Positions 28,454 to 54,200 of a stretch of 64,000 nt of DNA are shown piece by piece. The notes under the pieces were generated by a model. That model was not told the origin of the DNA. It saw only the letters and a list, made by a program, of their open reading frames with translations, and searched no databases. Location of the stretch: positions 1,455,813 through 1,519,812 of the forward strand of contig CAJNDT010005445.1 in NCBI GenBank assembly GCA_905221615.1, in the 5' to 3' direction. Numbering within the stretch: the first letter of the stretch is position 1; each line of letters opens with the position of its first letter. The position numbers and the translations under genes are program-made. The DNA is from Symbiodinium sp. CCMP2592. Lineage: Eukaryota > Sar > Dinophyceae > Suessiales > Symbiodiniaceae.

Positions 28454-28458
28454 GTTTC

Positions 28459-28656
28459 TGCAACTTGTGCCGATCAGGTGAGCTTCAATCGTTCGTGCTG
28501 GTCCCTCGCTTGACCTCTCAAGTAAGGGGCCCCTTTTCAGGAGCCGATAGACGGCACGGATCCGACCTTGGCGGTCGCATGGAAAACCGGTGCTGAGTGC
28601 ACCTTCGTGTGTGTGATTCGAGCCCTACCTTCAGCTTCCCTGCGCGACTCGCTGCA
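28459..28656 (+). repeat. 5' LTR of copia-1 (198 bp)
   Basis: Starts TGCAACTTGTGCCGATCAGG and ends GCGACTCGCTGCA, giving TG...CA termini with TGCA at both edges. Reading base by base I find no difference from the 3' copy at 37334-37531. Such LTRs carry the promoter and polyadenylation signals. Confidence 0.95.
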
Positions 28657-28657
28657 T

Positions 28658-28670
28658 TGGCAGCGGAGCA
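28658..28670 (+). promoter_or_regulatory. Primer-binding site of copia-1
   Basis: TGGCAGCGGAGCA begins one base after the 5' LTR. Its complement ends CTCCGCT-G-CCA, as expected for a tRNA 3' end whose acceptor stem opens with A and pairs with U, a trait of eukaryotic initiator Met-tRNA, the usual copia primer. The tRNA identity is inference. Confidence 0.7.
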
Positions 28671-28863
28671 CGGTTGCTCCAAGGACCTAACTGGCTCCTA
28701 AGGTGATTCCCTCCTCTTCGCGATCGGTGGTGCCAGTCTGCCTGCACTTGGAGTCACCTCAGAGCTACGATTAGAGAGCTCTGGAACCCTTTCTCCGGGA
28801 GTTCAACTTGACTCCCCACGTTCACTACGACTTTGTCTTCAAGTTTTCCTTTTCTTCTTTGAC

Positions 28864-31800
28864 ATGTCTGGCCAAGGCGACGTTGGTGGCTCAGTTCCTG
28901 TATGGGATGGTGCAGCTCGCAGCTGGCGGAGATATACCAGGGAAGTGGCGTGGTATGTTCAGAGTACTGCGCCACACAAGCGTCGGCACTGTGCAAGCCG
29001 ATTGATGGGGAAGCTCAGTGGACCAGCGAGACTGCTGGCAATGTCATGGTCACATGCTGCGTTTGACTCCGAGGACGGCACGCGCAAGCTCTTGCAGAGG
29101 CTTGCATCAAGCCCCTTGGTTCGGAAAACGCTTCCGAATGCGGCAGCGATCTGCCAGCAGTACTTTTCGTTCCGACGCCATGTCAATGAGTCGATCGGGA
29201 ACTTCTTGGTCAGAGAGACGCTGGTCCATGAGGAGTTCCAAGAGGCGATCATAAGGTTGCACGAAGAAAAGATGGGAATCACTCAGGAGTCCAAGGACTT
29301 TGGCCTACCTCCCGTTCAAGAAGAGGACTGGAGTGATGAGACATGGGGCGGCTCATGGGAGTCGTGGTGGAACTACGACGAGGACTACCTGGACGAGGGC
29401 GGCGATGATGATGCTCAAGGCGGTGACGATCCTCCTGAAGGCCAACCTACTACCCCGACGGCAACTGGTGTTGGCGATAGTGGAACCCGCGAGCCAGGCG
29501 GACCAACTCTGCCAGGTGCTACTGGATCGTCCCCAAGTCATCGCGAGGATCCTGGTGATGAGCGACAAGCCGATCCCTCGACTTCTCCTTCACGACGAAG
29601 CGCTGCGAAGCATCGGCCACCTCCGATGCCACAGACAGTGGACGAACTGTCCATGACAGACTCGTTCATCATGGGAGTTCTCCGTGGATGGCGACTACTC
29701 CAGGCGGCAGGTCTCACAGCAGAGGAGAAGCGGGACATCCTTTCCACAACCCGCAACAGCCTGGACTATGAGGTGATAGCCCAAGCTCTACAAGGACTCT
29801 GGGATGAACAGCTTCTTGGTCATCGGTACTCCAGCTCGCCACACTCCCAGGCCTACTACATGGGTGCCGATGAAGGCGAGGCGTTCTACCATGAGTACAA
29901 CGACGACTGGGGCACCGAGGACGACAATTGGAGCGAGGGCTACGCGTACTACCACGACTACGAGGACAACTTCGATGATCCTTGGTGGTACGGGGACACT
30001 GACTACAGCTACCAGGCCACCGCGGACGACAGCGAGCCCATCGACGATGAGAAGTACAAGGAGGCCAAACAGGCGGAGAAAGTGGCGGAGTCTCTGGCAC
30101 TGGAGGCTCAGAGGACATGGGCAGATGCCCAAAAGGCCACTCAGGCCTTGAGACGAGACCGAGGCTTCGGCGCATCCGGCGCTAAGGGCCACTTCTCTCC
30201 GGGCAAGTGCTATGCCTGTGGCGGCAACCACTTCATTCGCGACTGCCCGACAAAAGGCAAGGGGAAACAGCGATCCTACATGGCCGATGCGGAGGACTAT
30301 GGCATGCACTACGTTGGCAAGGGCAAGTCCAAGGGCAAGGGAAAGGGCAAAGGCAAATCTGGTCTTTGGCTAGAGAGCTACGCGGCCTGGAAAGGCAAGG
30401 GAAAGTCCAAGTTCAAGGGCAAGGATGTACCAAGGACTGTGAATGCCTATCATGCTGGCGCCGATCCCTACAGCCTTCATGGACTTGAGCTTACCTCAAC
30501 AATGGAAGCAGCATCGGCGACGTCGGCCAGCCGCACTCCGGAAATGGGCATGCTGGATTGCGGTGCCACAGCCTCGGCGGCACCTGAGGCCGTAGTGAAG
30601 GACCTCATAGCTGTTATCCTGTCTCACGACAAGCAGGCAGTCATCGAAGTTGACCAGAGCTCGCGGCCATACTTTCGGTTTGGTGATGGGAGATGGGGAC
30701 GTGCTCTGTATAGACTACATATTTCTAGTGACGTGTCAGGACAGAACCACAGCTTTGCCATCTATGCGCTACCAAACCCTGCTGAGTTCTACAAGTCCAA
30801 CTTCGATAAAACCAATTTAGTGCCCATCCTGATCGGAATGGACTTTCTTGGCAAGCAGGGACAGTGCATGATAGTAGACTTTTCGACGGGGTTGTTCGTC
30901 AACACTCACGAACCAAATCCTCAAGCTGAACGTCTTCATGAAAATCATAAAGGACACTACATGCTCGACCTGTGTCACTACATCACTCGCGGTCACAAAC
31001 GTCAGGATGGTCATGCTCGAGTTGTCGTATTGCCTCCAACAGTAAGCCGTTCCAGCGTTCCCGAGGTGCATGTGTTAGAGCTCCACCCTGTGCAGTTTGA
31101 TCTTACGGTCAGTGATGTTGAGTTTGATCAAAGAGAGCTGGAACATTCCTGGCAGAGACTGCTACAGCTTCATGCACAGTCAAGACAGCTACAAGGACTT
31201 GATGCTATGACCGCAGCTGCTTCAGCATCAATGTGTCGAGCTTCAGCTCAACAGACGACCCCGACAACTTCCTCTCCGACTTCCCTCTGTGATGGCGGCG
31301 CTCTCCCCTCCGGAGGAACAGGCGATGGTGGCGACGCTGAGAACTTCAGCTCCCAAGGCGAAGGCCAAGCCATTGGACCCTTCTCGTGCAATGAAGGGCG
31401 ATCCGCGGGATCCCCGGGCGGATGCCAAGACGTGGCCGTGTATGGGACGTCATGTACCAGGACCTCCGGGCGCCAACAATCACGGCCAATGGCAGCATTG
31501 CGCTCGGTGCGATTTCAGGATGAGCTACATCCCCCGTCAAGGATCCAAGGGACAATTCACGGCCACCAAGAATCCAGAGATGGTGGCTCGAGCACTCCGA
31601 GAGCTACGACCACTGATGGGAGACTTTGCTCCCACGGCAACGATCGTGAGGGCGATGCAAGCCAAGGTGGATGCAGAAGAAGTTCTACGCAATCACATTC
31701 GCGACCTACAGGCGAGCTACGCGGAGCCCCAGGGATATCCCAATCAGCTGGAGACAATGAAGCCAACTACATCAAGGACTTCGGCAAGCCCCGCGACACC

Positions 31801-34800
31801 CTCTTCGACCAGCAGCTGGCAGGTGACGAACCAGACGGAGATGAACTCTGTCACCATGGCGGGCGGCTACGAAGCAATGGACAACCAGCAACAGCCGTAA
31901 ACTCAAGAACTACTTCTAGAACGACTCGGCCCCTGAGTGTTGGTCTGGGCAACAAGGTGATGAATGCCATCACACTCATGGCTACGATGGTGTCATCTCT
32001 GCTGGTTGGACTACATGTTGGTGATCGAGATGGCCTTTGGGAAGTGACCTGTGCTCCCCACTCGTGGCTCAGTCAGGCGGCGCAACAACATGAACTTCAA
32101 TCCAGAGTGATCAGCCTCCACAACGGCTACGACCTCTACAAGCCCGAAACTTGGGAGCGATTGCGCGACCTCCGTCGGCGTCGAAGGCCGATGAAGATAT
32201 GGTTCAGTCTTCCGTTCTCCAAATGGTGTCCGTGGAACTACATGAACTACAAGCGCGATGGACGGGAAGAGCAGCTGGAAACTGCACGAAGGCGAGAGCG
32301 CAGGATGTTGTGGCATGTCAACCAGTTCATCAAGGAGACGCTTTCTGCCGACCCCCAGGTGATGATCTACTTCGAGTGGCCAACGCAGTGCGTTGGCTGG
32401 AAACAACGACCTATGGAAGACCTGTGGGACTACATGGATGGGCAAGGACAGGTTTGGGCAACCTGTCGAGTGGACGGGTGCCGCTACGGACTACGAGACG
32501 GTGATGAAGGCGGCTTCCTACGAAAGCGCTGGACTATCAAGACCAACGACGAGAACTTCCACAGAGTGTTCCGGACTAAGGTGTGTCCGGGAGGACACTT
32601 CCATGCTCACAAGAGTGAGTCTGAATGGTCCATCGACACCTACTACCCTTGGAAGCTGGTTCAGTCTGTGTGCCGGTTTTGGCGCGATTCTCTTGTTCCT
32701 ACACGACATCTACGACTACTACAACGAAGAGACGATCTACCTGTGGATGTAGATGCCGCTGAGGACAACGAGTCGGCACCATCGGACGCCAACTACGTGA
32801 ACTTGGCCGAGGACTATGGCTGTGAACACGAAGAGCATGGAAGTGATGATCAGTTCGAGATCAACCTGAGGGAAATGGATCGATTATCCCTCAAGGCACT
32901 TTTCGAAGAAGCCATGCACAAGGAATGCTACTCCTTCAGCAACCTGGAAGTCCTGATGACCGAGTTCTTCAATATCTACGATAAGATCCATCAGGAACAC
33001 AGCCGATGGTCACCTGGACATGGATGCGCTGTGGCCTTTGGTGGCTACTCTCATGGCGCCTTCTCGGGAGTCAGCAATGCCACCGACCGGTTTGACTTCC
33101 TGGTGAAGTATGTGAACGGCTTCTTCAAACATCATCACCCTGAGGCTCTTTGGTCCAGCTTTATGCTCAACAGGAACTGCAAGAGCCTCCCCCATAAGGA
33201 CCACCACAACTACAAGCTCTCAGATAATGTGATGTGCGGATTTGGACGCTACAAGGGTGGCGGCCTGTGGGTGTGCAGAGTACCGAGTGATGGTGATGTT
33301 GTCAAAAGACGACGGCTACCAGATGGGACAACCGTCAAGGGCATCATCAAGGACACCTTCCACCAGTTTGTTCGATTCCGACCAAGTGAGCTCCATGCGA
33401 CCGAGATGTGGACCGGAACCCGGATGGTTTTGTCCTTTTACACAACTCGATTAACACCATGGCTGTCCCAGGTCCATCGTCATCAACTACAAGCTCTTGG
33501 ATTTCAGCTGGCAACAGAGCCATACGCCAGTCAGACACATTCGACACCACCATCACAATCCTGGGGCACCAATGAACTTCAGAATGTTCAACTACCAGAC
33601 GTCAGTCAAACACATTCGGCACCACCATCACAATCCTGGGGTACCTCATGTTTTCCGGTCGTCACTGGTACAGAGTTGAATCCAGTCACCGAGGATCCAC
33701 TACCAGAAGGCGTCGACAAGGTCGAGTACCAGAAGTGGCAGGCGCAGGTCGCAAAATTCCACAAGGCAGCAGGTCACCCTACGAATCGCAATCTGGCTCG
33801 CATCATCAAGGACGCCGGCCATCCAGATTGGAAGGTACAGATTGCGAAGGAGTTCTACTGTCCTAGCTGCGAAAGCCTTAGACCTGGCGGCATGAGTTCT
33901 GGACAGGTTCCCCCGGCCAGTACGCATAGTCAATTTCAGGCTTGGGAGGCCATTGCGGTTGACTCTGCAGAGTGGATACCACCGGGCAAAAAGAAGAAGG
34001 TGAAGTTTCTCCTGTTCATGGATGTGGCCACCAAGCTACGTGTGGCCCATGTGCTGTACCTCTGCGACTTCCTTGAAATGCGAGCCGAGTCTGGAAGTCA
34101 CTTCGTTGAGGCCCTCTCCGAGAGATGGTTGAGTCTGTTTCCGCGACCTCGAGTGGTGATCTTGGATTCCGCCAAGAGTTTCATGTCTGAGCAGGCCAGC
34201 AACTTCTTGACGGACCTGCAAGTGTTGGTGCACTACGTTGCCGAGAAGGAGCCATGGGCCAACGGGGTGATTGAAGCGGCTATTCAGGACGTGAAGCACA
34301 CCGCTTCAGCGATCTACTTGGAAGCGATGGATGTGGATTTGTCAGTGACTCTTCACATGGCTGTCGCCGCGCTGAATGCCACGGAGTTTACCGCGGGCTA
34401 CTCGGCACATCAATGGGCCTTCGGAGCTTCCCATCAACCTACTGATGAGGATCGGCAATCCCTGGAGCTTGTGGATCCCAAGAGTGACTTTGCTCGTTTG
34501 GTTATTTGCCGACAACAAGCCGAGGAGATAGCGCGGAAAACCAAGGCCAAAAGAACCTTGATGAAACTCCACAACAGCAGTGTTCGACAACCTCTACGAC
34601 AATTCTCACCACTTGATTTGGTCAAGGTGTGGCGCAAGGTTTGGCCAAAGGAACAACATGTGGGGCCACGAGGTGGCTTCAAGAAGTCCGGCCGACCGCA
34701 TTGGATCGGGCCAGGACGTGTCCTGTTTCAGGAGGCGCTACCGCACCAAAAACAAGGCGAAGATCGAATGCATGTGGTGTGGGTCTTAGTTGGCAGTCAA

Positions 34801-37308
34801 CTTCTACGTTGCTCCGTTCACTCAGTGCGGCCTGTCACTGAGACTGAAAGATTTCAGCATGAGATCACCACGGAGGAAGACTTCACCCGCTGGCGATCAC
34901 TCGCCGACGTCCTACCCAGGAAAGAGTACACCGACCTCATGGATCAGACTCCGAATGAAGATGAGACAGAAATGCCAAACCTGCCCGAGCAACCTGACAG
35001 CACAACCACTGTGGTTCCTCATCGACGTCTACGGCAAAAGGTGACCTACCGACCCGGTGATTATCAACATCAACCGGTGAATGAACGACTTCATCGTCAA
35101 CCTTCTGATGGAGAACAACTTGAACCCACGACGGCAACCTCATCTACTACACCAGTGATGGTTCCCCCGGAACCACAAACTCTGGACGATGTGAACGAGT
35201 ACCTGGAGCCTGAGATGAAGCGGGCACGAGTGGATGAGGATGGCAACATCATGGACTATGATCTCCGTTGGACTCAGGAGCTCGAGACGAGTGAGCCCCA
35301 ACCGGAGCCCACCATGGATCTTCACGCCGCGATGGCCGATACCAAGGAGTTCCTCAAGATCGAGATCGATCTGCCTACAGAATGGTCCCATCGACAGCGA
35401 AAGAAGTTTGAACGTCATCCAGTGGCGTTCTTGGTGAAGAAGATGAAGGACTCCGAAGTCAGCTTGACCCGCCTCTCACCAGCTGAGCGTGAGCTGTTTG
35501 TGCGTGCCAAGGCCAAGGAAGTGGACTCGTTCATCAAAAATGAGGCTGTGCGCAAGTGTGTGGACTCCCAGGAAATCCGCGAGGCCTACGACTCCCAGAG
35601 AATCGTCAAGGCCCGATGGGTGCTAACCTGGAAGTTGGTACCGCCAGAAGATCGCGAATCAGCCATGCAAGATGCAACCGAAAATCCAGGAACTACCTTG
35701 CATGACAAACAAGGACGCCGCAAGGCTAAGGCACGGATTGTGCTGCTTGGATTCCAGCATCCGAGCCTGCTTGACCCCAGTTTCAAAACAGCAAGCCCAG
35801 TGCAGTCGATGGTTGGGCGAAACCTACTGTACTTAATGGCTGCTCAACATGGCTGGGAACTTGAAGGACTGGATCTGGCCACGGCGTTTTTGCAAACTAT
35901 GCCTACCGAAGCAGATGCAAGGTTATGGACAACGGGCGTAGAAGAGCTACGACAAGCTCTTGGAGTCGATTCCGAAGGTATACTACGGATCCTTCGAAAT
36001 ATCTACGGCAGCACCACCGCTCCTCGAGGACTTTGGTTGGACCTCCACAAGACCCTGACGAGCCTTGGAGCAATTGCGATAGTGGGAGAACGATGCCTTT
36101 GGATATGGCTATCGCAACATGAACGCGACGGAGATCATCCAAGGACCATTGGCGCCATGGGTGGCCATGTCGACGACTTCCATCGCATTGGCGACAACGA
36201 CAGTGAGGAGTGGCAAGCCATTAAAGAGAAAGTCAACAAGGCCTACAAGTGGGGCATGACGAAATTCAAGAACTACCGTCACGCCGGCACAGACGTGAGC
36301 ACATCAGTCGATGCCCACGGCAACATGAAGATCACCGTGGACCAGGACTACTACGTAGAAGGCCTCATGGATGTGGACATTCGGCCTGACCGACTGGCCA
36401 TGGATGGCACGATGAATGCTTCAGAAGTTGCGGCATGCAGGACGGCACTCGGCGCCCTGCAATGGTTAGCAATACAAACCCAGCCGCAGCTCTGCAGTCG
36501 ATGCAATCTGTTGCTGACCGAGGTAGTGACAAAGGCGCAGCTTCAAACTGCGCGTGAAATTCAGCAGATGATTGCTGAAGTCCGCAACGAGAGCTGTCGC
36601 CTTGAGTTCTTCAAGCTACGCACCGTGCGACACTGGTCAGAGATCGTCTTTGTCTCCATGGGTGACCAGGCACACGCCAACAGGGACAAGGGAGATTCCA
36701 CAGGGGGTCTTCTTACGCTCGCTGCTGGACCAGAAGCCCCACAAGGCAAGGTATGCCCTATGTGTCTCATATCCTGGAAAACGTGGAAACTCAAGCGCAA
36801 GGCCATTGGAAGTAACGATGCTGAGGTTCAATCAATCCTTGAAGCAGAAGACCAGAACTTCCGCATAAGGCTGCTATGGACCGAACTACATGGCCGAGGT
36901 GTTCCCCGGCAACTTCGTGATGACTTGGTCACCAGCGCCGAGAACCAGGCCATGGGTGTGAAAGGCATCTTGTGCACAGACTCCCGTGGTGGCTACGATG
37001 CTGTGGAGCGGAACGAGTCGCCGCTCTTGGGCTTGAGCAACATGAGGGCAGCTCTTCAAGCCTTCCAGCTGAGAGACAATCTTCGTCGAGTTGGCTGCGA
37101 ACTCAGATGGGTGGCCTCCGATTATGACTTGGCGGATGCCATGACGAAGAAGAAAGCAGAGAGTCGCGTTGGGCTCTTAACCTTCTTGAAGACGTGGTTG
37201 TGGTCAGTTGCTTTTGATCCTACCTTCACCTCCGCAAAGCGGAGCAAGCAAAAGGGTCGCTCTGCAGTTGGTGAGATTACCAAACATTTGAAGCGATCAT
37301 ACGATTGA
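28864..37308 (+). CDS. Copia-1 gag-pol polyprotein with methyltransferase-like and dioxygenase-like domains
   Basis: One 2814-codon frame, about twice the usual copia length. In order: gag with knuckle C449-x2-C-x3-H-x4-C461 and a Gly/Lys-rich tail; protease with D565-C-G-A in place of D-S/T-G-A; a low-complexity stretch (about 790-1045, see overlapping ORF); a methyltransferase-like part (about 1055-1270) with WEVTCAPHSWLSQAA, HNGYDL, IWFSLPFSKWC (1112-1122) and FEWP (1170-1173); a 2OG-Fe(II) dioxygenase-like part (about 1390-1540) with H1444-K-D1446, GGGLW (1465-1469), H1511 and R1520; integrase with H1633, H1638, C1666, C1669 and D1700, D1768, E1804 (DX35E); RT with D2337 and HVDD (2435-2438); RNase H with D2601, E2654, D2706. 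Pol domains are certain; the two inserts are motif-based calls. Cys is absent where methyltransferases have PPC (here LPF). Confidence 0.93.
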   Translation: MSGQGDVGGSVPVWDGAARSWRRYTREVAWYVQSTAPHKRRHCASRLMGKLSGPARLLAMSWSHAAFDSEDGTRKLLQRLASSPLVRKTLPNAAAICQQYFSFRRHVNESIGNFLVRETLVHEEFQEAIIRLHEEKMGITQESKDFGLPPVQEEDWSDETWGGSWESWWNYDEDYLDEGGDDDAQGGDDPPEGQPTTPTATGVGDSGTREPGGPTLPGATGSSPSHREDPGDERQADPSTSPSRRSAAKHRPPPMPQTVDELSMTDSFIMGVLRGWRLLQAAGLTAEEKRDILSTTRNSLDYEVIAQALQGLWDEQLLGHRYSSSPHSQAYYMGADEGEAFYHEYNDDWGTEDDNWSEGYAYYHDYEDNFDDPWWYGDTDYSYQATADDSEPIDDEKYKEAKQAEKVAESLALEAQRTWADAQKATQALRRDRGFGASGAKGHFSPGKCYACGGNHFIRDCPTKGKGKQRSYMADAEDYGMHYVGKGKSKGKGKGKGKSGLWLESYAAWKGKGKSKFKGKDVPRTVNAYHAGADPYSLHGLELTSTMEAASATSASRTPEMGMLDCGATASAAPEAVVKDLIAVILSHDKQAVIEVDQSSRPYFRFGDGRWGRALYRLHISSDVSGQNHSFAIYALPNPAEFYKSNFDKTNLVPILIGMDFLGKQGQCMIVDFSTGLFVNTHEPNPQAERLHENHKGHYMLDLCHYITRGHKRQDGHARVVVLPPTVSRSSVPEVHVLELHPVQFDLTVSDVEFDQRELEHSWQRLLQLHAQSRQLQGLDAMTAAASASMCRASAQQTTPTTSSPTSLCDGGALPSGGTGDGGDAENFSSQGEGQAIGPFSCNEGRSAGSPGGCQDVAVYGTSCTRTSGRQQSRPMAALRSVRFQDELHPPSRIQGTIHGHQESRDGGSSTPRATTTDGRLCSHGNDREGDASQGGCRRSSTQSHSRPTGELRGAPGISQSAGDNEANYIKDFGKPRDTLFDQQLAGDEPDGDELCHHGGRLRSNGQPATAVNSRTTSRTTRPLSVGLGNKVMNAITLMATMVSSLLVGLHVGDRDGLWEVTCAPHSWLSQAAQQHELQSRVISLHNGYDLYKPETWERLRDLRRRRRPMKIWFSLPFSKWCPWNYMNYKRDGREEQLETARRRERRMLWHVNQFIKETLSADPQVMIYFEWPTQCVGWKQRPMEDLWDYMDGQGQVWATCRVDGCRYGLRDGDEGGFLRKRWTIKTNDENFHRVFRTKVCPGGHFHAHKSESEWSIDTYYPWKLVQSVCRFWRDSLVPTRHLRLLQRRDDLPVDVDAAEDNESAPSDANYVNLAEDYGCEHEEHGSDDQFEINLREMDRLSLKALFEEAMHKECYSFSNLEVLMTEFFNIYDKIHQEHSRWSPGHGCAVAFGGYSHGAFSGVSNATDRFDFLVKYVNGFFKHHHPEALWSSFMLNRNCKSLPHKDHHNYKLSDNVMCGFGRYKGGGLWVCRVPSDGDVVKRRRLPDGTTVKGIIKDTFHQFVRFRPSELHATEMWTGTRMVLSFYTTRLTPWLSQVHRHQLQALGFQLATEPYASQTHSTPPSQSWGTNELQNVQLPDVSQTHSAPPSQSWGTSCFPVVTGTELNPVTEDPLPEGVDKVEYQKWQAQVAKFHKAAGHPTNRNLARIIKDAGHPDWKVQIAKEFYCPSCESLRPGGMSSGQVPPASTHSQFQAWEAIAVDSAEWIPPGKKKKVKFLLFMDVATKLRVAHVLYLCDFLEMRAESGSHFVEALSERWLSLFPRPRVVILDSAKSFMSEQASNFLTDLQVLVHYVAEKEPWANGVIEAAIQDVKHTASAIYLEAMDVDLSVTLHMAVAALNATEFTAGYSAHQWAFGASHQPTDEDRQSLELVDPKSDFARLVICRQQAEEIARKTKAKRTLMKLHNSSVRQPLRQFSPLDLVKVWRKVWPKEQHVGPRGGFKKSGRPHWIGPGRVLFQEALPHQKQGEDRMHVVWVLVGSQLLRCSVHSVRPVTETERFQHEITTEEDFTRWRSLADVLPRKEYTDLMDQTPNEDETEMPNLPEQPDSTTTVVPHRRLRQKVTYRPGDYQHQPVNERLHRQPSDGEQLEPTTATSSTTPVMVPPEPQTLDDVNEYLEPEMKRARVDEDGNIMDYDLRWTQELETSEPQPEPTMDLHAAMADTKEFLKIEIDLPTEWSHRQRKKFERHPVAFLVKKMKDSEVSLTRLSPAERELFVRAKAKEVDSFIKNEAVRKCVDSQEIREAYDSQRIVKARWVLTWKLVPPEDRESAMQDATENPGTTLHDKQGRRKAKARIVLLGFQHPSLLDPSFKTASPVQSMVGRNLLYLMAAQHGWELEGLDLATAFLQTMPTEADARLWTTGVEELRQALGVDSEGILRILRNIYGSTTAPRGLWLDLHKTLTSLGAIAIVGERCLWIWLSQHERDGDHPRTIGAMGGHVDDFHRIGDNDSEEWQAIKEKVNKAYKWGMTKFKNYRHAGTDVSTSVDAHGNMKITVDQDYYVEGLMDVDIRPDRLAMDGTMNASEVAACRTALGALQWLAIQTQPQLCSRCNLLLTEVVTKAQLQTAREIQQMIAEVRNESCRLEFFKLRTVRHWSEIVFVSMGDQAHANRDKGDSTGGLLTLAAGPEAPQGKVCPMCLISWKTWKLKRKAIGSNDAEVQSILEAEDQNFRIRLLWTELHGRGVPRQLRDDLVTSAENQAMGVKGILCTDSRGGYDAVERNESPLLGLSNMRAALQAFQLRDNLRRVGCELRWVASDYDLADAMTKKKAESRVGLLTFLKTWLWSVAFDPTFTSAKRSKQKGRSAVGEITKHLKRSYD
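31289..31900 (+). CDS. Overlapping +1-frame ORF inside copia-1 gag-pol (203 codons)
   Basis: This frame lies wholly inside the gag-pol frame, shifted +1. It looks more like real protein than the main frame does: it has a Cys/His cluster (WPCMGRHVPGPPG, then HGQWQHCARCDFRMSYIP), then helical text (NPEMVARALRELRPLMGDFA, VRAMQAKVDAEEVLRNHIRD). The main frame over the same bases is mostly S/G/R/T/Q. Dinoflagellate copia polyproteins, as I recall them, carry a C-H-C-C plus helix block at this place, so I infer two compensating indels, or a frameshift product. It is not a separate gene with its own promoter as far as I can see. Confidence 0.55.
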   Translation: MMAALSPPEEQAMVATLRTSAPKAKAKPLDPSRAMKGDPRDPRADAKTWPCMGRHVPGPPGANNHGQWQHCARCDFRMSYIPRQGSKGQFTATKNPEMVARALRELRPLMGDFAPTATIVRAMQAKVDAEEVLRNHIRDLQASYAEPQGYPNQLETMKPTTSRTSASPATPSSTSSWQVTNQTEMNSVTMAGGYEAMDNQQQP

Positions 37309-37333
37309 AGACTCATCTTTGTTTAGGGTCTGG

Positions 37334-37531
37334 TGCAACTTGTGCCGATCAGGTGAGCTTCAATCGTTCGTGCTGGTCCCTCGCTTGACCTCTCAAGTAA
37401 GGGGCCCCTTTTCAGGAGCCGATAGACGGCACGGATCCGACCTTGGCGGTCGCATGGAAAACCGGTGCTGAGTGCACCTTCGTGTGTGTGATTCGAGCCC
37501 TACCTTCAGCTTCCCTGCGCGACTCGCTGCA
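37334..37531 (+). repeat. 3' LTR of copia-1 (198 bp)
   Basis: Same 198 bases as 28459-28656, starting 25 bases after the gag-pol stop codon and followed by the target duplicate GTTTC at 37532-37536. Confidence 0.95.
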
Positions 37532-37536
37532 GTTTC

Positions 37537-41565: not shown

Positions 41566-43643
41566 GCGCTGCTTATGACTTGCTGGGCCATGAACTCACG
41601 CTCGACGACATCAGCAATACCAGGTTTCGCGTACAGGCACTCGTCATTCATTGTCCTCGTAGAGAACACTACTGCACGCTCGAGTTTGCAGACTGTGGGC
41701 TCGCCTACTCTTATGACAACCTGCAAGGGCTGCGACTCGTCTATCGAGACCACTTGCCTTTCGAGTGTGCCTCCTATGCCAAAGAAGCCCTCTCTTTTTC
41801 ACAATGGCAAGAGGAACTCGGAGCCCAATCATCGGTTACAACTGTTGTCGTGCAAGCAGCTACTGCAGCCAGTAGGCGCGTGCAGCAGGCCTACATCAAT
41901 GCTGCATCTCATCTCTCTCTGCCCAAAGCTTCGTCCTCCCTCGCCGCCTCCGTTGCCGGAATTGGATCGCTTGTTGATCAGCATTTAGCCCCTTTGGCTC
42001 CGACACCTGATGCACCTAGCACTGGTCAGACTCTTCCTGACCTAACGGATCACGACACACCAATGCCCCTGGCAGAAGAGAGCGATGGGCGCCACGTTGT
42101 CACTGTTGAGGACTCCGATGAGGAGCTCAACAAACCTGATGATCCTTCCCGAAAAAGAAACCCCCCAACTGAAGCAGCACCTGATTCTGCCAAAGTTTCC
42201 AAACCTGCTGTGTTGTTCACTGCTGCAACCGATAGAGGGGTCCGACAGTTGCGAAATACTATCGCTTCTGAATATCGTAGATCATCGGGATTCATTGGCC
42301 TTGCACGGTCTGCCAAGGAGCTTTCCGACTGCTGCCCTTTGAGCTCTGCGTCATATGCTGTTATCTCGCTCTTCGATGGAGCCTGTACAGCTGTTGACAT
42401 CATCAAATCCTGTCACAAACAGCAGCCTAGTGCCCTGATTGCAGTTGAGAGGTGTGGCCAGATACGAGGCCTTGTCTCTGTCCTGCGCCACTTTGACATC
42501 CATGGGGAATGGCAGGAATGTGGTGGAGGATACCCTGTCGCCTACCTCAAAGATGTTGCCGACATCCTCGCTAATTCGTGCCAAAGGATCAAGGAAATGC
42601 TGCAGTTATGCGATGCTACATTGGCATGCGTCTATGTAGTTGCCGGTTCGCCGTGTCCGGATTTGACCTTTGCAGGCAGGGTCACGCAGTTCAGCCTTTT
42701 ACTATGTGTGGGCAACTGTGCGCGCGCTTCAGACTATCCTGTCGTCAACGTTCAGCCGCTTGTCGAGAATGCTGGCTCTATGAAGCCCATTTTTCAGCAG
42801 CACATTGCTATGCGCCTTGGGCTCCCTCAGGGTGCACACTCTATTGCCGACGCCGTTGATTTTGGCAAGGTTGCATCACGCAAGCGTTCTTTCTTCTCAC
42901 GGGCCATGCAACCTGTTACGGGTGTGCAGCGCCAGGTCATCTCCCCGTTAGATGCCGGATGGTCGCCCGCACTTGTTTCTGATGATCGCGGACAGATCTC
43001 ACATGCGATCCTCCCCCCTTTCATGCGGCCGCGGGGAGAAGCCCCAGATGGCAGTCCACGGTTGACCACTGCTCTCTATCATCCCCGGTTCTTGCTGTAT
43101 CAAGTTTCTTACTTCGGAAGTTTTGCCAATTTTGAAGCTGCTTGCTGTAGCCCTCTTGCTCAAAAGCAGCGTTTCCCAGCACTTCCTTGGGAGCAATTTT
43201 TTCCCGCACACTTGCTCTCTGACTGGACAACTTTCGTTACTGCCGGCAATTCCTGCAATGGTTACATCGAAAAGAGCCTCGAAGACTCTCTTGAGTCGCT
43301 CTTCGTTTATCTCCAAACGACACCGCTTCCATTCCGCCCTATAAGGCTACACGAGTTGCTTGCTGACCTGGAACTCCTTGAGGTGTTTCGAGTTGTGCCG
43401 CGCTTCGCCTCGCATAGCCTTATTGCTTCGCTTGCCGGGAATTCATTCATACCGAGCGTTGTGAGAAGATTTGTCGTTACCGACCTTGCTAATTGTCACC
43501 CCATTGCATCCGTGCCCACCCCTGAAGATCTTCGTGCTCATTATGAGACACTGAAGCAGGCTGTGCGTGAGCAAATTGACGCCTCTGTTAGTGCTAAAAG
43601 GGTTTCCTTAGTTATCGTTCAAAGATCGTGCTTTGTGTTTTGA
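41559..43643 (+). CDS. C5-cytosine DNA methyltransferase (DNMT) segment
   Basis: An ATG-led frame of 687 codons opens at 41580, but coding in this phase extends back to 41559. Residues (from 41580) about 255-640 hold the C5-methyltransferase motifs in order: I, ISLFDGACTA (D266, SAM binding); IV, AGSPCPDLT with catalytic C359; VI, VENAG with E396-N397; VIII, R434-K-R436; X, GNSFIP (620-625). A Ser/Pro/acidic linker (DEELNKPDD, then RKRNPP) precedes it. SPCPDLT resembles DNMT3/plant-type more than bacterial enzymes. All catalytic residues are present, so this domain could be active if translated. It probably adds methyl groups to DNA cytosines in the nucleus. The final about 11 residues derive from the 43612 repeat, which seems to have cut off the native C-terminus. 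Confidence 0.85.
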   Translation, partial: QKSAAYDLLGHELTLDDISNTRFRVQALVIHCPRREHYCTLEFADCGLAYSYDNLQGLRLVYRDHLPFECASYAKEALSFSQWQEELGAQSSVTTVVVQAATAASRRVQQAYINAASHLSLPKASSSLAASVAGIGSLVDQHLAPLAPTPDAPSTGQTLPDLTDHDTPMPLAEESDGRHVVTVEDSDEELNKPDDPSRKRNPPTEAAPDSAKVSKPAVLFTAATDRGVRQLRNTIASEYRRSSGFIGLARSAKELSDCCPLSSASYAVISLFDGACTAVDIIKSCHKQQPSALIAVERCGQIRGLVSVLRHFDIHGEWQECGGGYPVAYLKDVADILANSCQRIKEMLQLCDATLACVYVVAGSPCPDLTFAGRVTQFSLLLCVGNCARASDYPVVNVQPLVENAGSMKPIFQQHIAMRLGLPQGAHSIADAVDFGKVASRKRSFFSRAMQPVTGVQRQVISPLDAGWSPALVSDDRGQISHAILPPFMRPRGEAPDGSPRLTTALYHPRFLLYQVSYFGSFANFEAACCSPLAQKQRFPALPWEQFFPAHLLSDWTTFVTAGNSCNGYIEKSLEDSLESLFVYLQTTPLPFRPIRLHELLADLELLEVFRVVPRFASHSLIASLAGNSFIPSVVRRFVVTDLANCHPIASVPTPEDLRAHYETLKQAVREQIDASVSAKRVSLVIVQRSCFVF

Positions 43644-43810
43644 TGTCTATCATGTTTGAACCTTCAGGGATGAATGCTTGCACTCACACATGTCACATGC
43701 GAGAAGTTCAAAGCTCGACGCTATTTTCACACGGTGGGGTAGCAAGTACCGCACACGGCAGATATCTTCGAACTGTCGGTCCTGTGAGACACAAGACTCT
43801 TTTCGTCCCC
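43612..43810. repeat. 200-bp direct repeat, copy 1
   Basis: Begins TTATCGTTCAAAGATCGTGC and ends CTTTTCGTCCCC. The second copy at 44292-44491 differs, as far as I can see, by one inserted T. The DNMT frame ends inside this copy. Confidence 0.95.
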
Positions 43811-44291: not shown

Positions 44292-44491
44292 TTATCGTTC
44301 AAAGATCGTGCTTTGTGTTTTGATGTCTATCATGTTTGAACCTTCAGGGATGAATGCTTGCACTCACACATGTCACATGCGAGAAGTTCAAAGCTCGACG
44401 CTATTTTCACACGGTGGGGTAGCAAGTACCGCACACGGCAGATATCTTCGAACTGTCGGTCCTTGTGAGACACAAGACTCTTTTCGTCCCC
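44292..44491. repeat. 200-bp direct repeat, copy 2
   Basis: Nearly identical to 43612-43810. The minus-strand RNase H frame terminates inside this copy (stop at 44407). Confidence 0.95.
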
Positions 44492-45290: not shown

Positions 45291-48200
45291 ATGGCCTCGC
45301 TCTTGCTAGGTGGGAGTAGTGAGACTCCTGCTCAGAACGTCCCTGTGCCTGAGGAAGGCATGGACTTCGACCTGTTTGGACCAGGACCCGTGGGACCTGT
45401 AGGACCTGTGAACAGTCCTGTTGGGTCGCCGACAGCTCAGCAAGCAGCAGCGGCTGCACCTGCGAGTGGTTCTGCAACAGTGCCAGAAGGTGTTAGTGGT
45501 CCGGCTGTAGCGCCGGCGGCTCCTGCTCAGTGTCCGGTTCCTCCGAACCCTGCGTTGGGAGGTGAACAACTGCAGCAGTTGATGTTGCAGATGCTGAACA
45601 ACCAGAACACGGCTTTACAGCAACAGCAGAATCAGATGAACTTTCTGATGCAAGCTCAGAGTGCTCAGTTGACCCTCTTGAACCGCCGTTTGGACGAGGA
45701 AGAAGCCAGACGGAAAGCCGACGAGGATCGGCGAAAGGTGTCTTCGGACCCCTTTGCAGCTGCAGTGGCTGCTAGCAGTTCGGGAGCAGCGCCGACGGCG
45801 CCTACTGGGTCGCTTGTTGCCCCTCCGAGTGGGCCTGCTGCGAGTTCTGGAAGCTTTTCGAGTTTTGGTGGTCGTGCAGAGAAGTATCTGCCACCCCTGC
45901 CTCTCATCAATGCTGGTGAGATGAAGCAAGGCCGGATCCGCGAGCTTGAGGAGTTCCACCGCTTTCTGGAAGTGCTGTCCAGCTGGCTAGCATTGACCGA
46001 TGACGCCTTTGTTGGCGAGCTAAGGCAGTGCTTGTTTGTTGCTGGTGAGATCCAGCAGGTTACTTTGCCCAGTGACACTGCGGGAAGAAGTGCACGTCTT
46101 TTTTACCTGTTGCAGCAAGCTTTGGCAAAGTGGGACAGAGGATTGGAGATCCTCCGGAGTGTTTCGACACGCCAGAGCAATGCAGCTGCAGGATATGAGG
46201 GTGTGAGAGAGCTTTACCGGCAGTACTCTGTGAACAGCCGCATGGAGGCGGTGTATATCAGAGACGAAATGCTAAAGCTCCACACAAAGACTGCAGCGCT
46301 GAAGCGCCCTCTGGAAGTTGTGCGTTTCCTCGAGGACGAAATCTCCAAGGGAGATAAAAAGCTGGTGCGTTTTCCCGACCTCTGCTTGAACGCCGCCGAC
46401 AGATCGGCCATTTTGCTGCAAGCTGTGTCAGTGCAAGCGAGAGAGTACTTGGTGCTGCATGGCAAGACTGGCAGTTGGACCGAGATGGCGGAGAGTCTTC
46501 GTTTTTACGAGGAGCAGCTGCGCATGGTGGAGCTGCCAAGTGGTGGTTTGCGTGGTCTCAAAGGAGACAAAGGCGGGAAAGACGGCAAAGGCGCGAAAGG
46601 AGGAAAAGCCGGCGGTGCCAAGGACAAGTCCCAGATTGTCTGCTGGTACTGCGAGAAGAAAGGGCACTATCAAGAAGAGTGCCGCCAGAGGATCGCAGAT
46701 GAGAAGAAGCAGGGCAAAGGCGACAAGAGCAACAAGCCCAAGGGCAAAGGCCAGGGCGACAAAGACAAAGGAAAGGGCAAAGAGAAAGGCAAAGGCAAGC
46801 ATGGCAAGGATAAGGGCAAGGACAAGAAGACCAAGAAGCAGCACGCCCGTGCTGTAGCGGATGGCGAAGCAGAAGAGGAGCCGGAGGGAGAGACTGTGAT
46901 GGCCCTTCGCGCTTCTGGCGAGTTGATTCCGGTTGATGCCCGCGGTGGCGTCTTGAGGACGACTCCTTCGACACCTGAGGTGCCTGCTGCGGCGCACCGA
47001 GTGACCGTTGAGCACAGAGTGTGCTTAGTTGGCATTGAGTCGCAAGATAGCTACTGGCTAGTGGATAGCGGTGCTACTTCTCATTGCATGTCGGTCTCCT
47101 GCTTCGAGAAGTATGAAGTCCTTCGCACTTATGATTTTAAGCCCACGCTGTCGAATGCCTCCAACGACATGATTGAAGTGTTGAAGGTGTGTGACGTTCG
47201 CGTTCGTTTTGGGAAGCTTGTGGTGGTGCTAGAGCATTGCTTGATCACGAACTTAGATTTCAATGTCTTGTCACCGTTTGTGGCTTGGCAGAGAGGATGG
47301 CACACCATGCTCACCAACACACCTCATATTTTCAACAAGAAGAACAAGAAACGCATTCGGTTGACTGTCAAGGATCGCGCTTGGTACGCGGTTGCTGCTT
47401 TGAAGGATTCTGGGGATAAGATGGAGGTTGATGCTTTGAAGCCCTCGTCGTCCCCGAAAGCAACGGAAAAGCCTGAAACCACGAAACCCCCGAAAGCCAC
47501 GGAAAAGCCTGAAACCGCGAAACCCCCGAAAGCCACGAAAGCCCAGAAAGCCCAGAAAGCTCAGGAGCAAAGGTCTTTGGAGTCTGTGAAGAGCCTAGAG
47601 TACACGCCTTTTAAGTTTCTGCTGAGGAGCTTGAGGACGCACGGTGGTAGTGCCGTTTCGGTCTGTGAGGGTGCTGCTCTGGAGTCTCTTGAACGCTGTG
47701 AGCTTGACCGCTTTGGCTGTGGTAGCAGAAGTGGCAAGAAAGATTCTGAGGCTCAGCCGTCGTGGACCGCTGGGTCGATGATGATAAGTGTTGTGAGCTT
47801 GTGGTGCATGGCTTGCGTTGGCGTGCTGTGCTCCCTGTGGACCTTAGTGAGTGAGTGTGCTTGCGAGGTTTCAGGGTTAGGGTTTCTTCAGGATTTGCGA
47901 GGCGGTTCCCTGCGGAGGCTGCAAGGTAGTGCAGTGCGTGTCGTGAGGGAGTGTGCGTGCAAGGTTTCAGGGCTAGGGTTTTGTCAGGATTTGCAAGGCG
48001 GTTCCTCGTGTAGGCTGCAAGGCAGTGAGTGCGCGAGGTCAGTACGGCGTAAGCTGCAAGGCAGTGAGTGCGCGAGGTCAGTGCAAGGTGGTTTCAAGTG
48101 GAGACTGCAAGGGTGCGCAAGGGTCGTGCATCGTAGTTTGGTGCTCAAGCTTCTGTTTTTCACGCTCCTCGTTTTGTGCGATGGGGCGTCGACGAAAGAA

Positions 48201-51200
48201 GCAGCCGGAGCCCCCGGTATCCTCGACGGACGAGGAAGAAAGGTCGTCGCAGGCGGCAATTATGGCTCAGAGAATGGCGGACCTCACCGCTATGAAGAGC
48301 GCTGCGTCTGCCCGACGATCCGATGTGGTGACGGTCGCATCGGTGATAGAAAGCACGGCTCGGGAGGAATCCGAGCGGAGGCAGATGGAGGAGCACGACG
48401 AGCTCACCAAGATTTCTCGCGAGTGGCACAAAATGGCAGTGCCTTCACAGCCAAAATCGCCACTGCAAAAATCACCGCTGCCGTCAAAGCTGGAGGAAGA
48501 AGAGGAAGAAGGCTGGGGCAAATGGCGCCCCGAGTCTGGTGTGGCCACGGACGTTGCCGAGGCCCTGGATGCTGCAGAGAAAGCCGTCGAGAAAGTGCCC
48601 AAGCGCAAGAAGAAGCGGGCATCTCGTGCGACAAAGGAAGCCACGAAGGCCTTGAAGGAGGTCCGTGGTGCGGCAAAGAAGGCCACGAAGGCCTTGAAGG
48701 AGGCTGCAGCAGCCGAGGAAGCCGAGGCGGACACTGTGGACCCTACTTTTCTGAATCCACATTTGTTTGTCGCGCCCACCTCGAAGAAGAAGGCCCGGAA
48801 GCCCGAGCGGAAGCCAGCGGATGGTGGTCCGGTGACGATGGGCTACAATCGCCAGCTGATGCAGGTGGTTCGGACGGAGAAGAAGGTCGTGAAGGCCAAG
48901 AGGCTTGTGAGAAAGAAGCAGCACGCCCGTGCTGTAGCGAAGGGCAAGGCGCTTGCCGAAGGCGCCCTGGAATGGGTGCAAAGCCGCCTGGACGAAAGAT
49001 CCGAAGGCCGGCCGGCCCAGGAGCCGGAGCAGGGTGCAGTGGACCTACTTGTGGCAGTGGGGACTGCGGAAACCACGGTCGATGCCCAAGAAGCTGTTCC
49101 TGTACCTGCGAAGAAAAAGCGAAAGAAGAAAAAGGCCGCTGTCGAAGCGGTTGTGGACGCCGCTGCCGAAGCGGTTGTGGAAGCCGCGGCCGAGGCTGTT
49201 GTGGAAGAGGTGGCACCAGCTGCTCCCGAGGAGGACGTGCCGATGACACCGGCGCCCTCAGATCCACGTGGAAAGCCTCGTTTGGCTCCAAAGCCAAAGA
49301 CAGTGACCAGGCCGGCTGTGACCTTAAAGCCGGCCGTTATTGTGATTCCGGATGGGCCACCGCCGCCCAAGGTGAAACCGTCCAGGTCGCCGGCCAAAGT
49401 TTCTCCCTCGCCGCCGAAGCCTTCGAAAAGAGCCGTGCCAGCGGCACCGGAGACCCCTGGAGTGAATCCTGCTTTGGTGCCAGTGAAGGCGATGCCAGTG
49501 AGGCCGGCGGCGCCTCCGAAGATGGTGCCTGTGAAGGCCATGCCGGCCTTGCCAGCGCCAGCAGCGCCAGCAGTGCCGCTGCCGCCGTTACCGCCCCCGC
49601 CGTTGGGGTACCAAGGATCGTTTTTGCTGGGACCGCAGCCGCCTCTGGGATACCACAGATCGCTTTTGCTGCAAGCCCCGCCGACCGATCCAAAGAGCAA
49701 GGCACCGATCCGCCCAACACAACGGGTACTCGGTGGTTCGTATGGCCCTCCAGACCAAGGGTCAACGCAACATGGACGCGGCTCCAAGAGGCGCTCCCGC
49801 TCTGTCTCTATCTGAGACCTACCGTGCGACCAACCGCAGGGTGCAAAAGGATGCGTCTGAAGAGGAAGTGGAAGCGATCTTCTGTGAGAGTAGGTTGCTT
49901 TGAGTGTGGTGAGTGTCCGGGTGTGCTCGGTAGAAAGGGTGAAGTTCTGAGGTTGCAGCGCTATAGGGTTTTACGGGTTTTTGGGAAGGGTTTTGCAAGT
50001 GAGTGTGAGGCCCAGACCCCCACAGAAGCCTGGAGGCCCAGTGACGTGCTGCAAGTGTTTTGCGAGGGTTTTGTGAGAAAGGCTCAGGCTCTACTTAAAG
50101 CCTTGGGGCCCTCTGTGCGAGTGTGTTTGCCAGGGTACGCGCAAGAAGCCCCGAGAGCCCAAGCCCCCAAAACGTCCAAAGTCACCGAGGCACCGAGAGT
50201 CAGCAAAGCACCGAAAGTCCCCGAAGCACCGAAAGCCAGCAAAGCACCGAGAGCCAGCAAAGCACCGAGAGCCCCCGAAGCACCGAGAGCCAGCAAAGCA
50301 CCGAGAGCCTCTGAAGCCGTGGAGTGTTTTGTGCTGGTTGGTGTGCGGCGTCTGCGGTCCTTGTGCTGTTGTGGCTTGGAGCGTGTGCGTGGCTTGTGGT
50401 TGTGTTGTGCTTGTGGCTGGGATGACCTAAGGTCGGAGCCTTTGAAGGTGAAAGGTGGCTGGGATGAGAAAGTGTCTGAGCCGCCACACCGTTTGTGCAT
50501 GATGCGTGGACTTCCGGTGGAAGTGACGATTTCCGATGAAGAGTTGATTCCGGATGGTGATCCACCAAGGCAGGCGGAACCCGCCCAAGCCTCAGCTCCA
50601 GCACCGGTTGTTGAAGCCGAGCCTGCTGCTGAAGATGCTGGGGATATTTCTGAAGAAGGGGAACTTCATGTTCCACTGGAGGATAAAGAGTATCAGGAGC
50701 ACGTTGCTCGGGGCCATCAGCCCTATCTGCCTTCGTGTTCTTTGTGTGTGTCCAGTCGAGGAGTGATTCCAGCGCGAAGGCGCAAAGATCCTTCAATTCC
50801 GCAAGCAAGCTTCTTAAGCGACTTCTTGTTCTTTACGAAAGACCTGAGAGTGTGCATTGTGGTGCACGAGCTTAGCGGATATTGTTTCGCTGTGCCCTAC
50901 CCCACAGGAGGTGATCCAGGGCATGTTGCACGGTGTATAAACGCCGAGCTGGCCGCCGCAGGTATTCAAGGTCAGCATGTTGTGCTGAGGATGGATAATG
51001 AAGCGTCTCTGATCTCGCTTTGGAACAAGGTGGGAAAAGACCGCTCATACCCAGGCCTCTCGTTGCACATAGACGCGGTGCCGAAAGGACGGCCGCAGTC
51101 GAAAGGGCTTGTGGAGGTAGGTGTGCGACACTTGAAGGAAGCCTTCTGGGTGAATTGGTTGACGCTAGAAACTACGCTGGAGAAGAAGCTCCGGCTGGGT

Positions 51201-54200
51201 GGTTTGTTGTACAAGGAAGCTTTGAGATATGTTGCTAGGACAAGGAACCTGCATGCGACCTCGAAGTCGCAAACCACGCCAATTGAAAGGCTGAGACGCC
51301 AACATCTTCCAGTAACGAAGACGTTTCCTTTTGGGTGCAAGGGTTTTGCCAAACCTGCGAAGCAGAAGCCTGAGAATCGAGGCCGCCGCCTCATCCCGTG
51401 TATGTACCTAGGGCCTGCTAAGCCCAATGGTGGAGGAGTGCGTGTGCTCCCTCTTGATCGGCCTGATGAGGTCGAGGTGATGTCGGCCTTTCGGCCGGAC
51501 CAGCCTTACCTGTATCCTGAGGAGTTGGTGGTACAAGCCGCTGATTCGGGTGCCCCTTCTAGGCAAGACAACGTTTTAGAGCGTCCTGTTTCCTTAGACC
51601 TGAAGCCCCCCGAAGCCTTTCAGCCTGGAGAGCCTAAGGGTAATCTAGTTGAGAGGGGGAGTGCGGAGCCGGAGGCTCCAGCTGAGCTCTTGGAGGATGA
51701 GCTTATGGACTATGATCCTTCTCCAGTTGAGGAGGAAGAGGTACTCCCTGAAGGGCCCCCTGCAGGAGAGAACGAGGCCCCACCTTTGTACGATGTGGAC
51801 ATGCAGCCGGCCGACGATGATGACCCCATGGAGGTGGCGATCAGCTGGCTGGAGGACCATGCTTTGTACTCCATGTGTTCTAGACCTGAGGTTGTGTTCG
51901 CGGCAAAGGACGCTAAAGGGTCTAGGGCGGCCAAGTTGGAGTTTACTTTGAAGTTTGGAGGGTCCAAGGTGAAGGTTGAGGTTCCTTCTGGGGCTGCTGA
52001 TGAGTATACTGGGGAGGTTCTTGAGGAGAAGAAACTTGGGGAAGGGATGCGTCTTGAAATGGAGGAACTGGACCACTTTGGTGTGTGCCAGGTTGTGTCT
52101 GAGAAGGAGGCGTTTCGCCTTGTGCGGGAAGCTAAGAGGAGAGTGCTTTCCACCAGGTGGGTGTTGCACTACAAGGACGGGCACAAGCGTGTGCGCTGCC
52201 GTTTGGTTGTGCGTGACTTTAAAGGGCCCACCTCTGCTTTAGCTGATGGCATCTATTCTCCTACTACTACCTTAGAGTCTGTGAGGTGTCTGTTGGGGAT
52301 GTATGCGCATTTCGGAGGGAAGGTGATTTCGGGAGATATTTCTGTGGCCTTCATGCAGGCTAAGCTGTTTTCTACTGAGGTGGTGAAGCTGCCGGAGAAC
52401 TGTAGGACAGTGTCAGGTGAACGTGTGCATTGTCTGCTGAAGCGTGCCATGAATGGTTTGCGGATTGGGCCTTTGGCTTGGTTTCGTGAGCTAGGAGAAA
52501 CACTGAGAAAACTTGGTTTCTTTGTTACTGCTGACAGCACTGTGTATCGCAAGGTGATCAAGGAGAAAGGCAAGGATGCCATTGTGTTGGTGTTGGCCTA
52601 TGTAGATGACATCTTGGTTTTCAGCACGGTTGCGAGTGTAGCTGAGAAAGTGTTTGAGGAACTGAGTAAAGTGTTCAAGATGAAGCGCACGGGAACGCTT
52701 CAACCGGGAGAGAAATCGGTGATCTCCTTCCTTGGGAGAAACATTTATCAGAGGAAGACCGGAGACTTGTACTTCGGACTCAAACCCGGGATGCTCCATA
52801 GCTGTGCGGAAGAGTATCAAATCACGAAGGGAGCGAAACTCCCCAAGCTTGAGCGTTTGTGGACCAGTCTGGAATCCACCCCGATCACGCATGAGGCCTA
52901 TCAGCGCTACCGGCGCGTGTTGGGCAAACTGTCGTGGCTAGCTTTGACAAGAGCTGATTTGCAGTTTGTTGTAGGTTTTCTGGCCCGGAGCCAGAGCAAC
53001 CCAGACTCCAGGAGTGAAGCGTGTATTCGAGCTGTGCTGCGTTGGATTCTCACGCTTGGGAATCGGGTTCAGCGGATCCCGGCACAGTGGGTGAACTATC
53101 GCCCTTCGGAAAGTACGCGTGTGATCGATTGTTTCTGTGATGCTAGCTGGAATTTGCCCTCTGTGAGTGGGGCGATTATCTGCTGGCAGTGCAACCTGTT
53201 GAAGAGTTTTAGCCGTAAACAGACGGTTGTGGCCCTGAGCAGTGCCGAGGCTGAATTGAGTGCTTTGGTAGAGACTGTGAAAGAGGCTTTGTTTGCAGGG
53301 TTGCTTCAACAGTCGTTTTTGGAGGGATTGCCTGAGGATGATACCGGAAGCTTTTGGATCCGGATTTGTACCGATTCTGAGTCGGCAAAGGCGATTGCTT
53401 CAATGGAGGGACTCTTGAGAAGGGTTCGTCACCTGGAGTTGCGGTGTGCTTTCCTGCAGCAGATGGTTCAGTCGGGGAGAGTGATCCTCGAGTTTGTGGC
53501 CGGAGCATATAATGCCTCCGACGGCCTGACCAAGAGTATGGTCTTTCAGGAGCAGCTGGACAACCTCTACGAGGTAACCGGTTTGGTTTCTTTTGAAGAC
53601 GAGTTGGGTGAGTTTGAGCTGGAACGCCTGACTGCAGAAGAGCCGGTAAACCGTTCTTTTGTTCCTGAGGAGTACGTTTCACTGTGTGAAGCAGTGGCGA
53701 AGAACCAGGTCACCTTTGTGGTCGTTGAACTGTTCTGCCAGGAAGAAAGTGCCTTACAGAAGGCATGTGAGAAGCTTGAGATTGCCTATGTGGGCGTCAC
53801 TGAAAAGCTTGACTTTTGTTCTGAGCAGACGCAGTGTTTTCTGAAGGAGTTGTTTTCTGTGTTGAGTTGTGGCTTGAAGACGAAGATCTACTGCCATATC
53901 TCCACTCCCTGTACCACTGGGTGTCGTTTGCGTTACCGCGGGTGGCGCAAGTACAGTCAAGAGAAGTGGGAAGAGAAGAAGAAGTTGCATCAGCGTGCTT
54001 GGGAACTTCTTGAAGGTTTGTTGAAACCGGTTGCTCGGAGTGAACGCTTGTTGTTGACTCAAGAGTGGCCTCTGCAGAACGACCTCTGGAAGGACCCGCG
54101 GTATCTTCAGGTTGCTTCAGAATTGGGGCTTTCTGAGGGTATTGTGGTAGACCGCTGTGCGTACGACTGTGTGTTTAAACGGTGGTACTTTGCCACGAAC

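Follow-up and report, generated by a model that had tools for sequence, protein, structure and literature searches.

Predicted C5-methyltransferase and TET/JBP-like dioxygenase domains within the polyprotein of a young Ty1/copia retrotransposon from Symbiodinium

The stretch analyzed here, hereafter the window, comprises 64,000 nucleotides of Symbiodinium sp. CCMP2592 (GenBank assembly GCA_905221615.1, contig CAJNDT010005445.1, positions 1,455,813 to 1,519,812 of the forward strand). It harbors a 9,073-bp Ty1/copia element at 28459-37531 with one intact polyprotein frame, in which the integrase is preceded by a methyltransferase-like domain (MT) and a domain (DX) predicted to fold as the 2-oxoglutarate (2OG)- and Fe(II)-dependent dioxygenases of the TET/JBP type. 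Such a pair had been proposed by a sequence-only reading of the window.

Organization of the copia element

28454..28458, unstranded: 5′ target-site duplication GTTTC (flanking bases)
28459..28656, + strand: 5′ long terminal repeat (LTR), 198 bp, TG...CA, matching the 3′ LTR at 198/198 bases
28864..37308, + strand: copia Gag-Pol polyprotein, 2814 aa from the first ATG, with homologues similar in length
30208..30246, + strand: Gag CCHC zinc knuckle CYACGGNHFIRDC (motif; zf-CCHC Pfam match sub-threshold)
30547..30579, + strand: GMLDCGATASA, which we take to be a retropepsin-like active-site motif
33751..34284, + strand: presumed integrase region comprising the HHCC and a portion of the DDE core (motifs AGHPTNRNLARI, CPSC, LDSAK, WANGVIEAAI)
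35704..36249, + strand: reverse transcriptase (Pfam RVT_2 match, sub-threshold)
36691..37152, + strand: presumed RNase H region (GDSTGG ... ADAMTKK), assigned by position
37334..37531, + strand: 3′ LTR, 198 bp, TG...CA (repeat comparison)
37532..37536, unstranded: 3′ target-site duplication GTTTC (flanking bases)

The identical LTRs and the 5-bp GTTTC on both outer sides indicate a complete and recent copia insertion, in keeping with the youth ascribed to the element by the earlier reading, and the frame described there as intact is open over 2,868 codons (28702-37308, + strand). The order within the polyprotein is CCHC knuckle, protease motif, long insert, integrase, reverse transcriptase and RNase H. 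The RVT_2 match (E 2.5e-5) scores 24.4, under the Pfam cut-off of 31.6, and many relatives carry RVT_2; with the LTRs and target duplication and the integrase ahead of the reverse transcriptase, the element is a member of Ty1/copia. Its subfamily looks small, as seven LTR matches were found in the genome: besides the pair of the element itself, three share 97-98% identity with it and another two share 88%. Two LTR copies at G000:C3557:75964-76161 and 101320-101517, both 98% identical to the LTR of the element, lie 25 kb apart, which might reflect the nesting of one insertion or a pair of solo LTRs.

An insert between protease and integrase is present as had been described, with a size nearer to 950 than to the 850 or so residues first given (GMDFLG at residue 712 in stop-to-stop numbering, integrase HHCC from 1684); MT and DX make up about 500 of these.

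The methyltransferase-like and dioxygenase-like domains

32014..32712, + strand: MT, C5-cytosine DNA methyltransferase fold with motif IV SLPFSKWC and motif VI-like FEWP (AlphaFold2, structural neighbors, conservation)
32899..33531, + strand: DX, TET/JBP-like 2OG-Fe(II) dioxygenase domain (structure prediction, active-site conservation)
33193..33201, + strand: putative Fe ligands H1444-K-D1446 (HxD), within SLPHKDHHN at 33184-33210 (motif, alignment)
33208..33210, + strand: N1449, three residues after the Fe-binding Asp (D+3; alignment, literature roles)
33394..33396, + strand: putative third Fe ligand H1511 (motif, alignment)
33421..33423, + strand: R1520, putative 2OG ligand (alignment position)

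All the motifs named for the two domains were located in the frame starting with ATG 28864: for MT, WEVTCAPHSWLSQAA at residue 1059 (nt 32038-32082), HNGYDL at 1086, IWFSLPFSKWC at 1112 and FEWP at 1170; for DX, H1444 and D1446, GGGLW at residue 1465 (33256-33270) and HATEMWTGTRMVLSFY at residues 1511-1526 (33394-33441), which holds H1511 and R1520.

The AlphaFold2 model of MT has a predicted local distance difference test score (pLDDT) of 91.7, and all 50 structural neighbors among the matches listed belong to the C5-cytosine DNA methyltransferase (C5-MTase) family. Judged by its predicted fold MT is a C5-MTase, which agrees with the earlier assignment as regards the fold and departs from it as regards the active site: the position of the catalytic Cys in motif IV is occupied by Phe, making an active methyltransferase in the window copy doubtful. 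The FxGxG loop binding S-adenosylmethionine, which is motif I of C5-MTases, is absent from the window MT, where WEVTCAPHSWLS stands at 32038. Among the copia MT domains the motif IV Cys is present in 63/85 and the motif VI Glu in 85/85 (13/16 in the second copia clade described below), and the ratio of nonsynonymous to synonymous substitutions (dN/dS) is 0.07-0.22 in usable pairs. In a Pfam scan of 23 MT members, each family that matched did so in a single member at most and none was a methyltransferase; because sequence family searches gave no C5-MTase, it is the predicted fold that identifies the copia MT as one.

The DX model is a double-stranded beta-helix (pLDDT 93.4, predicted template modeling score 0.89), the fold by which the dioxygenase reading was to be judged, and among solved chains it comes nearest to TET/JBP enzymes, which fill the top five places with NgTET1 and CcTet the best. 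N1449 occupies the same place as Asn1387 of TET2, Asp234 of NgTET1 and Asp350 of CMD1, the D+3 residues described as contacting the base, with N4 of 5-methylcytosine (5mC) as the contact, in the available text of two reports (PMC11040006, PMC7854593). The Pfam family Tet_JBP (PF12851) matches 7/12 and 8/27 relatives, with the best E of 2.7e-6 and all scores under the cut-off of 34.9 bits, and is the only 2OG family of Pfam matching more than one relative. The window copy itself gave no Tet_JBP match and no other Pfam family over 31771-33600, no NCBIfam family, nothing in viral contigs and one unrelated match (E 0.95) in the PDB sequence search; relatives gave only weak unrelated matches to PHROGs. 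The assignment of DX as a TET/JBP-type 2OG-Fe(II) dioxygenase is supported by the predicted fold and the conserved active site.

A divergent MT-like domain (21% identity, E 6e-4) is also encoded at 53727-54338 in a second copia element of the window (45291-54368), where it is C-terminal, after the reverse transcriptase, with no DX match there.

Conservation and presence or absence of DX in copia elements

The alignment of copia DX domains included 81 sequences: the window copy, 54 proteins and 26 genomic loci, excluding the broken copy L002 and L001, the locus of the window; the oxidase core of L006 is contained in protein P0019. H1444 is His in 80 of them, D1446 is Asp in 80, H1511 is His in 79 and R1520 is Arg in 77. 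When identical cores are removed, leaving 75 distinct rows, the respective numbers are 74, 74, 73 and 71, so both results that were to count against the sequence-only reading, a predicted structure lacking the beta-helix and loss of H1444, D1446 and H1511 from related elements, failed to appear. The full set of four residues is kept in 68/75 distinct rows and the D+3 Asn in 74/75. The seven exceptions are three Arg-to-Cys replacements, one Arg-to-Leu replacement and three rows gapped at one catalytic position, one of which also has Ala for the first His. This conservation, together with the confident predicted fold, rules out a chance motif.

DX occurs in 53 of 84 MT-bearing copia homologues and is missing from the other 31, in each case as a unit. 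Of 11 pairs with more than 50% identity, 6 had a usable dS, and in these dN/dS of DX is 0.147-0.220; since dS is near saturation save in one pair, these values show constraint and do not allow a fine comparison. Two Symbiodinium polyproteins, P0085 (residues 1729-1951) and P0086 (1549-1719), carry DX without a detectable MT.

The catalytic Cys of MT is kept in 33/54 rows bearing DX vs 30/31 without it. On the tree DX presence requires five changes and the Cys eight, and the independent-pairs test is unable to reach significance. Loss of the Cys as a consequence of DX gain was therefore not accepted despite the strong raw contrast, which is given here as an observation only.

A second copia clade and a DIRS-like group

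The genome searched contains 1,098,105,373 bases in 5,383 contigs. With the MT-DX query at least 109 matches were found (72 of 4,956 candidates scored), and 20 chosen places were fetched, of which, by profile score, one falls in the first group and 19 in a second group lying further away. Both domains in the order MT-DX are present in 16/19 second-group stretches, the other three stretches being short, and H, D, H and R are kept in 19/19 places. One second-group element, L033, has an RVT_2 match at E 8e-24; in this element a lone stop codon (6316-6318, - strand) lies between gag (690 aa) and pol (2063 aa) in the same frame, which suggests stop-codon read-through.

A six-frame search of the 1.1-Gb genome with the Tet_JBP family (150 of 155 candidates scored) gave four places at 29.2-29.6 bits (cut-off 34.9), with 0/14 control genomes matching. 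Two of these places were read in context and belong to a third, DIRS-like retroelement group (RVT_1 at E 0.011-0.012); the other two share 98% identity with the first across DX. For a tyrosine recombinase in this group there were weak matches only (Phage_int_SAM E 0.42; an integrase chain E 2), hence the label DIRS-like and not DIRS.

L029-L032, L036 5911-9501 (+ strand) and L038 6118-9810 (+ strand): DIRS-like copies with TET/JBP-like domain, C5-MTase-like domain and RVT_1

In this group DX directly precedes the C5-MTase-like domain, whose PPC and EN motifs are intact. The copia and DIRS-like DX belong to a single family (hhalign 99.7%, E 1.2e-25), and the link between the respective MT domains is weaker (60%, E 8.6e-5). 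Despite the intact PPC and EN motifs, no C5-MTase was found for the DIRS-like MT in Pfam, NCBIfam or PDB searches, and the DIRS-like DX gave nothing of value against phages.

One DIRS-like DX has at least 150 genome matches at 34-100% identity (150 of 5,103 candidates scored, all of which matched), including a few that are pieces of one copy or contain stops; two were read in context. A protein search with a whole module (8,000 best-sharing candidates scored) gave at least 110 proteins, with DX detected in 26, MT in 108 and both in 24, DX coming first in 22 of the latter. In the 27 DX rows of this search, L029 included, the first His position holds His in 22, Arg in 2 and a gap in 3, Asp is kept in 25, the second His in 23 with Arg in 1, and the 2OG Arg in 26; the MT rows have Cys in 106/109 and Glu in 108/109. 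DX looks like a part that was added to, and can be removed from, an MT widespread among retroelements, and it recurs in three retroelement groups: the two copia clades and the DIRS-like group.

At L039 (49-5484, + strand), beside one DIRS-like copy, an open frame of 1812 aa encodes a cysteine protease domain of the OTU-like type (E 1e-12).

Elsewhere in the window, two 200-bp direct repeats at 43612-43810 and 44292-44491, 99.5% identical and 680 bp apart, are possibly LTRs that belong to a further element, small or deleted.

Proposed function of the module

The reading that we favor, and consider on balance probable, is that of a young intact copia element which DX serves as an oxidase of 5-methylpyrimidines in DNA. 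The part of Pol ahead of integrase would be a two-part DNA-base-modification module, which would stay with integrase and the cDNA once the polyprotein is processed. DX would oxidize the 5-methyl group of a pyrimidine, either 5mC or thymine, in DNA, presumably in cis, on the DNA of the element itself or at the target site. In one version, 5mC laid down by the host would be converted to oxidized forms without silencing effect; in the other, thymine would become 5-hydroxymethyluracil (5hmU), and the new DNA would then resemble resident host DNA. The roles suggested by the earlier reading, a marking of the element's cDNA and a supply of modified bases to the host, are likewise hypotheses. MT, a C5-MTase fold that is probably not catalytic in the window copy, may mainly supply DNA binding and base flipping there, and copies keeping the Cys perhaps also 5mC.

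It is rather unlikely, in our opinion, that this extends to the wider proposal that at least three dinoflagellate retrotransposon groups modify their own DNA with a write-and-oxidize pair of a C5-MTase fold and a TET/JBP-type oxidase, the combined copies being a main source of modified pyrimidines, 5hmU included, on dinoflagellate repeats.

Two other readings of DX seem less likely still, and to about the same degree. According to the first, DX over many retrotransposon copies is a thymine hydroxylase making much of the dinoflagellate 5hmU, that of the host genome included. All four genomic Tet_JBP places are retroelement-type open frames, one DIRS-like DX has the 150 or more genome matches given above, and the D+3 Asn could pair either with O4 of thymine or with N4 of 5mC. 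No host TET gene was found by the six-frame search, which would be escaped by a gene with short exons and in which 150 of 155 candidates were scored, and no conclusion is drawn from this absence. The enzyme TET2, which shares this Asn, has 5mC as its main substrate. As far as the available text of Marinov 2024 goes (PMC11071213), 5hmU is enriched on most repeats of Breviolum minutum, which suits a hydroxylase carried by repeats, but the class most enriched is Maverick and not copia, these two being the least accessible; dinoflagellate 5hmU is compared there with kinetoplastid base J.

The second takes DX for an AlkB/ALKBH5-like demethylase clearing N-methyl marks or damage from the RNA or cDNA of the element, a role proposed for the AlkB domains found in some plant RNA viruses. 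It is opposed by the five best structural matches being TET/JBP and the recurring Pfam family being Tet_JBP, by the match to TET2 of the HRDxHN stretch, which includes the base-contact Asn, and by the lack of any AlkB family in the Pfam scans (limit E 10, with HMMER filters dropping most matches above about 0.1). The border between TET and AlkB is not sharp, since CcTet, a TET, also handles N6-methyladenine according to the available part of PMC11040006.

The least probable reading is that MT and DX are accessory DNA-binding folds for integration targeting or particle assembly with catalysis irrelevant. The uneven retention of the MT Cys is as expected of a scaffold, but binding alone would not need the full Fe/2OG set kept in 68/75 distinct copies of two clades.

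Comparison with known systems

No report of an MT-oxidase module in retrotransposons, and no paper naming the enzyme responsible for dinoflagellate 5hmU, was found in the open-licence papers searched; a review of 2024 on the genomics of dinoflagellates (PMC11453091) contains, in its available part, no word starting with dioxygenase or JBP. The Ty1/copia elements of Symbiodiniaceae, deposited as "GIP" or "Copia protein" gene models, have the same backbone throughout, with the MT fold widespread and DX variable. DNA methyltransferase (DNMT)-bearing retrotransposons of Symbiodinium and Klebsormidium were described by de Mendoza 2018 (PMC5890265) as LINE, DIRS and Gypsy, and some of their DNMTs were shown to methylate CG. 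The available text of that work states that Symbiodinium copia lacks any DNMT domain, and its main text has no word starting with TET, dioxygenase or hydroxymethyl. Both cases concern a C5-MTase domain within retrotransposons of the same algal group, with the difference that here it is the predicted fold of a domain in copia.

DX resembles the TET/JBP enzymes (NgTET1, CcTet, TET2, CMD1, JBP1/2) in the predicted double-stranded beta-helix, the HxD...H motif, the downstream Arg and the Asn or Asp at D+3, and differs from them in falling under the Tet_JBP cut-off, being compact (about 200 aa) and lying embedded in a retrotransposon polyprotein. Fungal DNA transposons and Helitrons (Kyakuja, Zisupton, Plavaka, Helitron and others) carry TET/JBP proteins proposed to counter silencing, and no retrotransposon encodes one according to the available text of this fungal survey (Kojima 2025, PMC12730594). 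In both systems a TET/JBP-type dioxygenase is found on a mobile element, but the fungal carriers are DNA transposons and Helitrons, whereas here the carrier is a copia retrotransposon, a case that is new with respect to those described so far. The intact and conserved TET/JBP-like frames within repeats are concrete, expressible candidates for dinoflagellate base modification, so that a part played by mobile elements in the modified DNA of dinoflagellates can be put to the test. They also offer a natural case in which an element may itself supply the means to oppose, or to impose, epigenetic marks.
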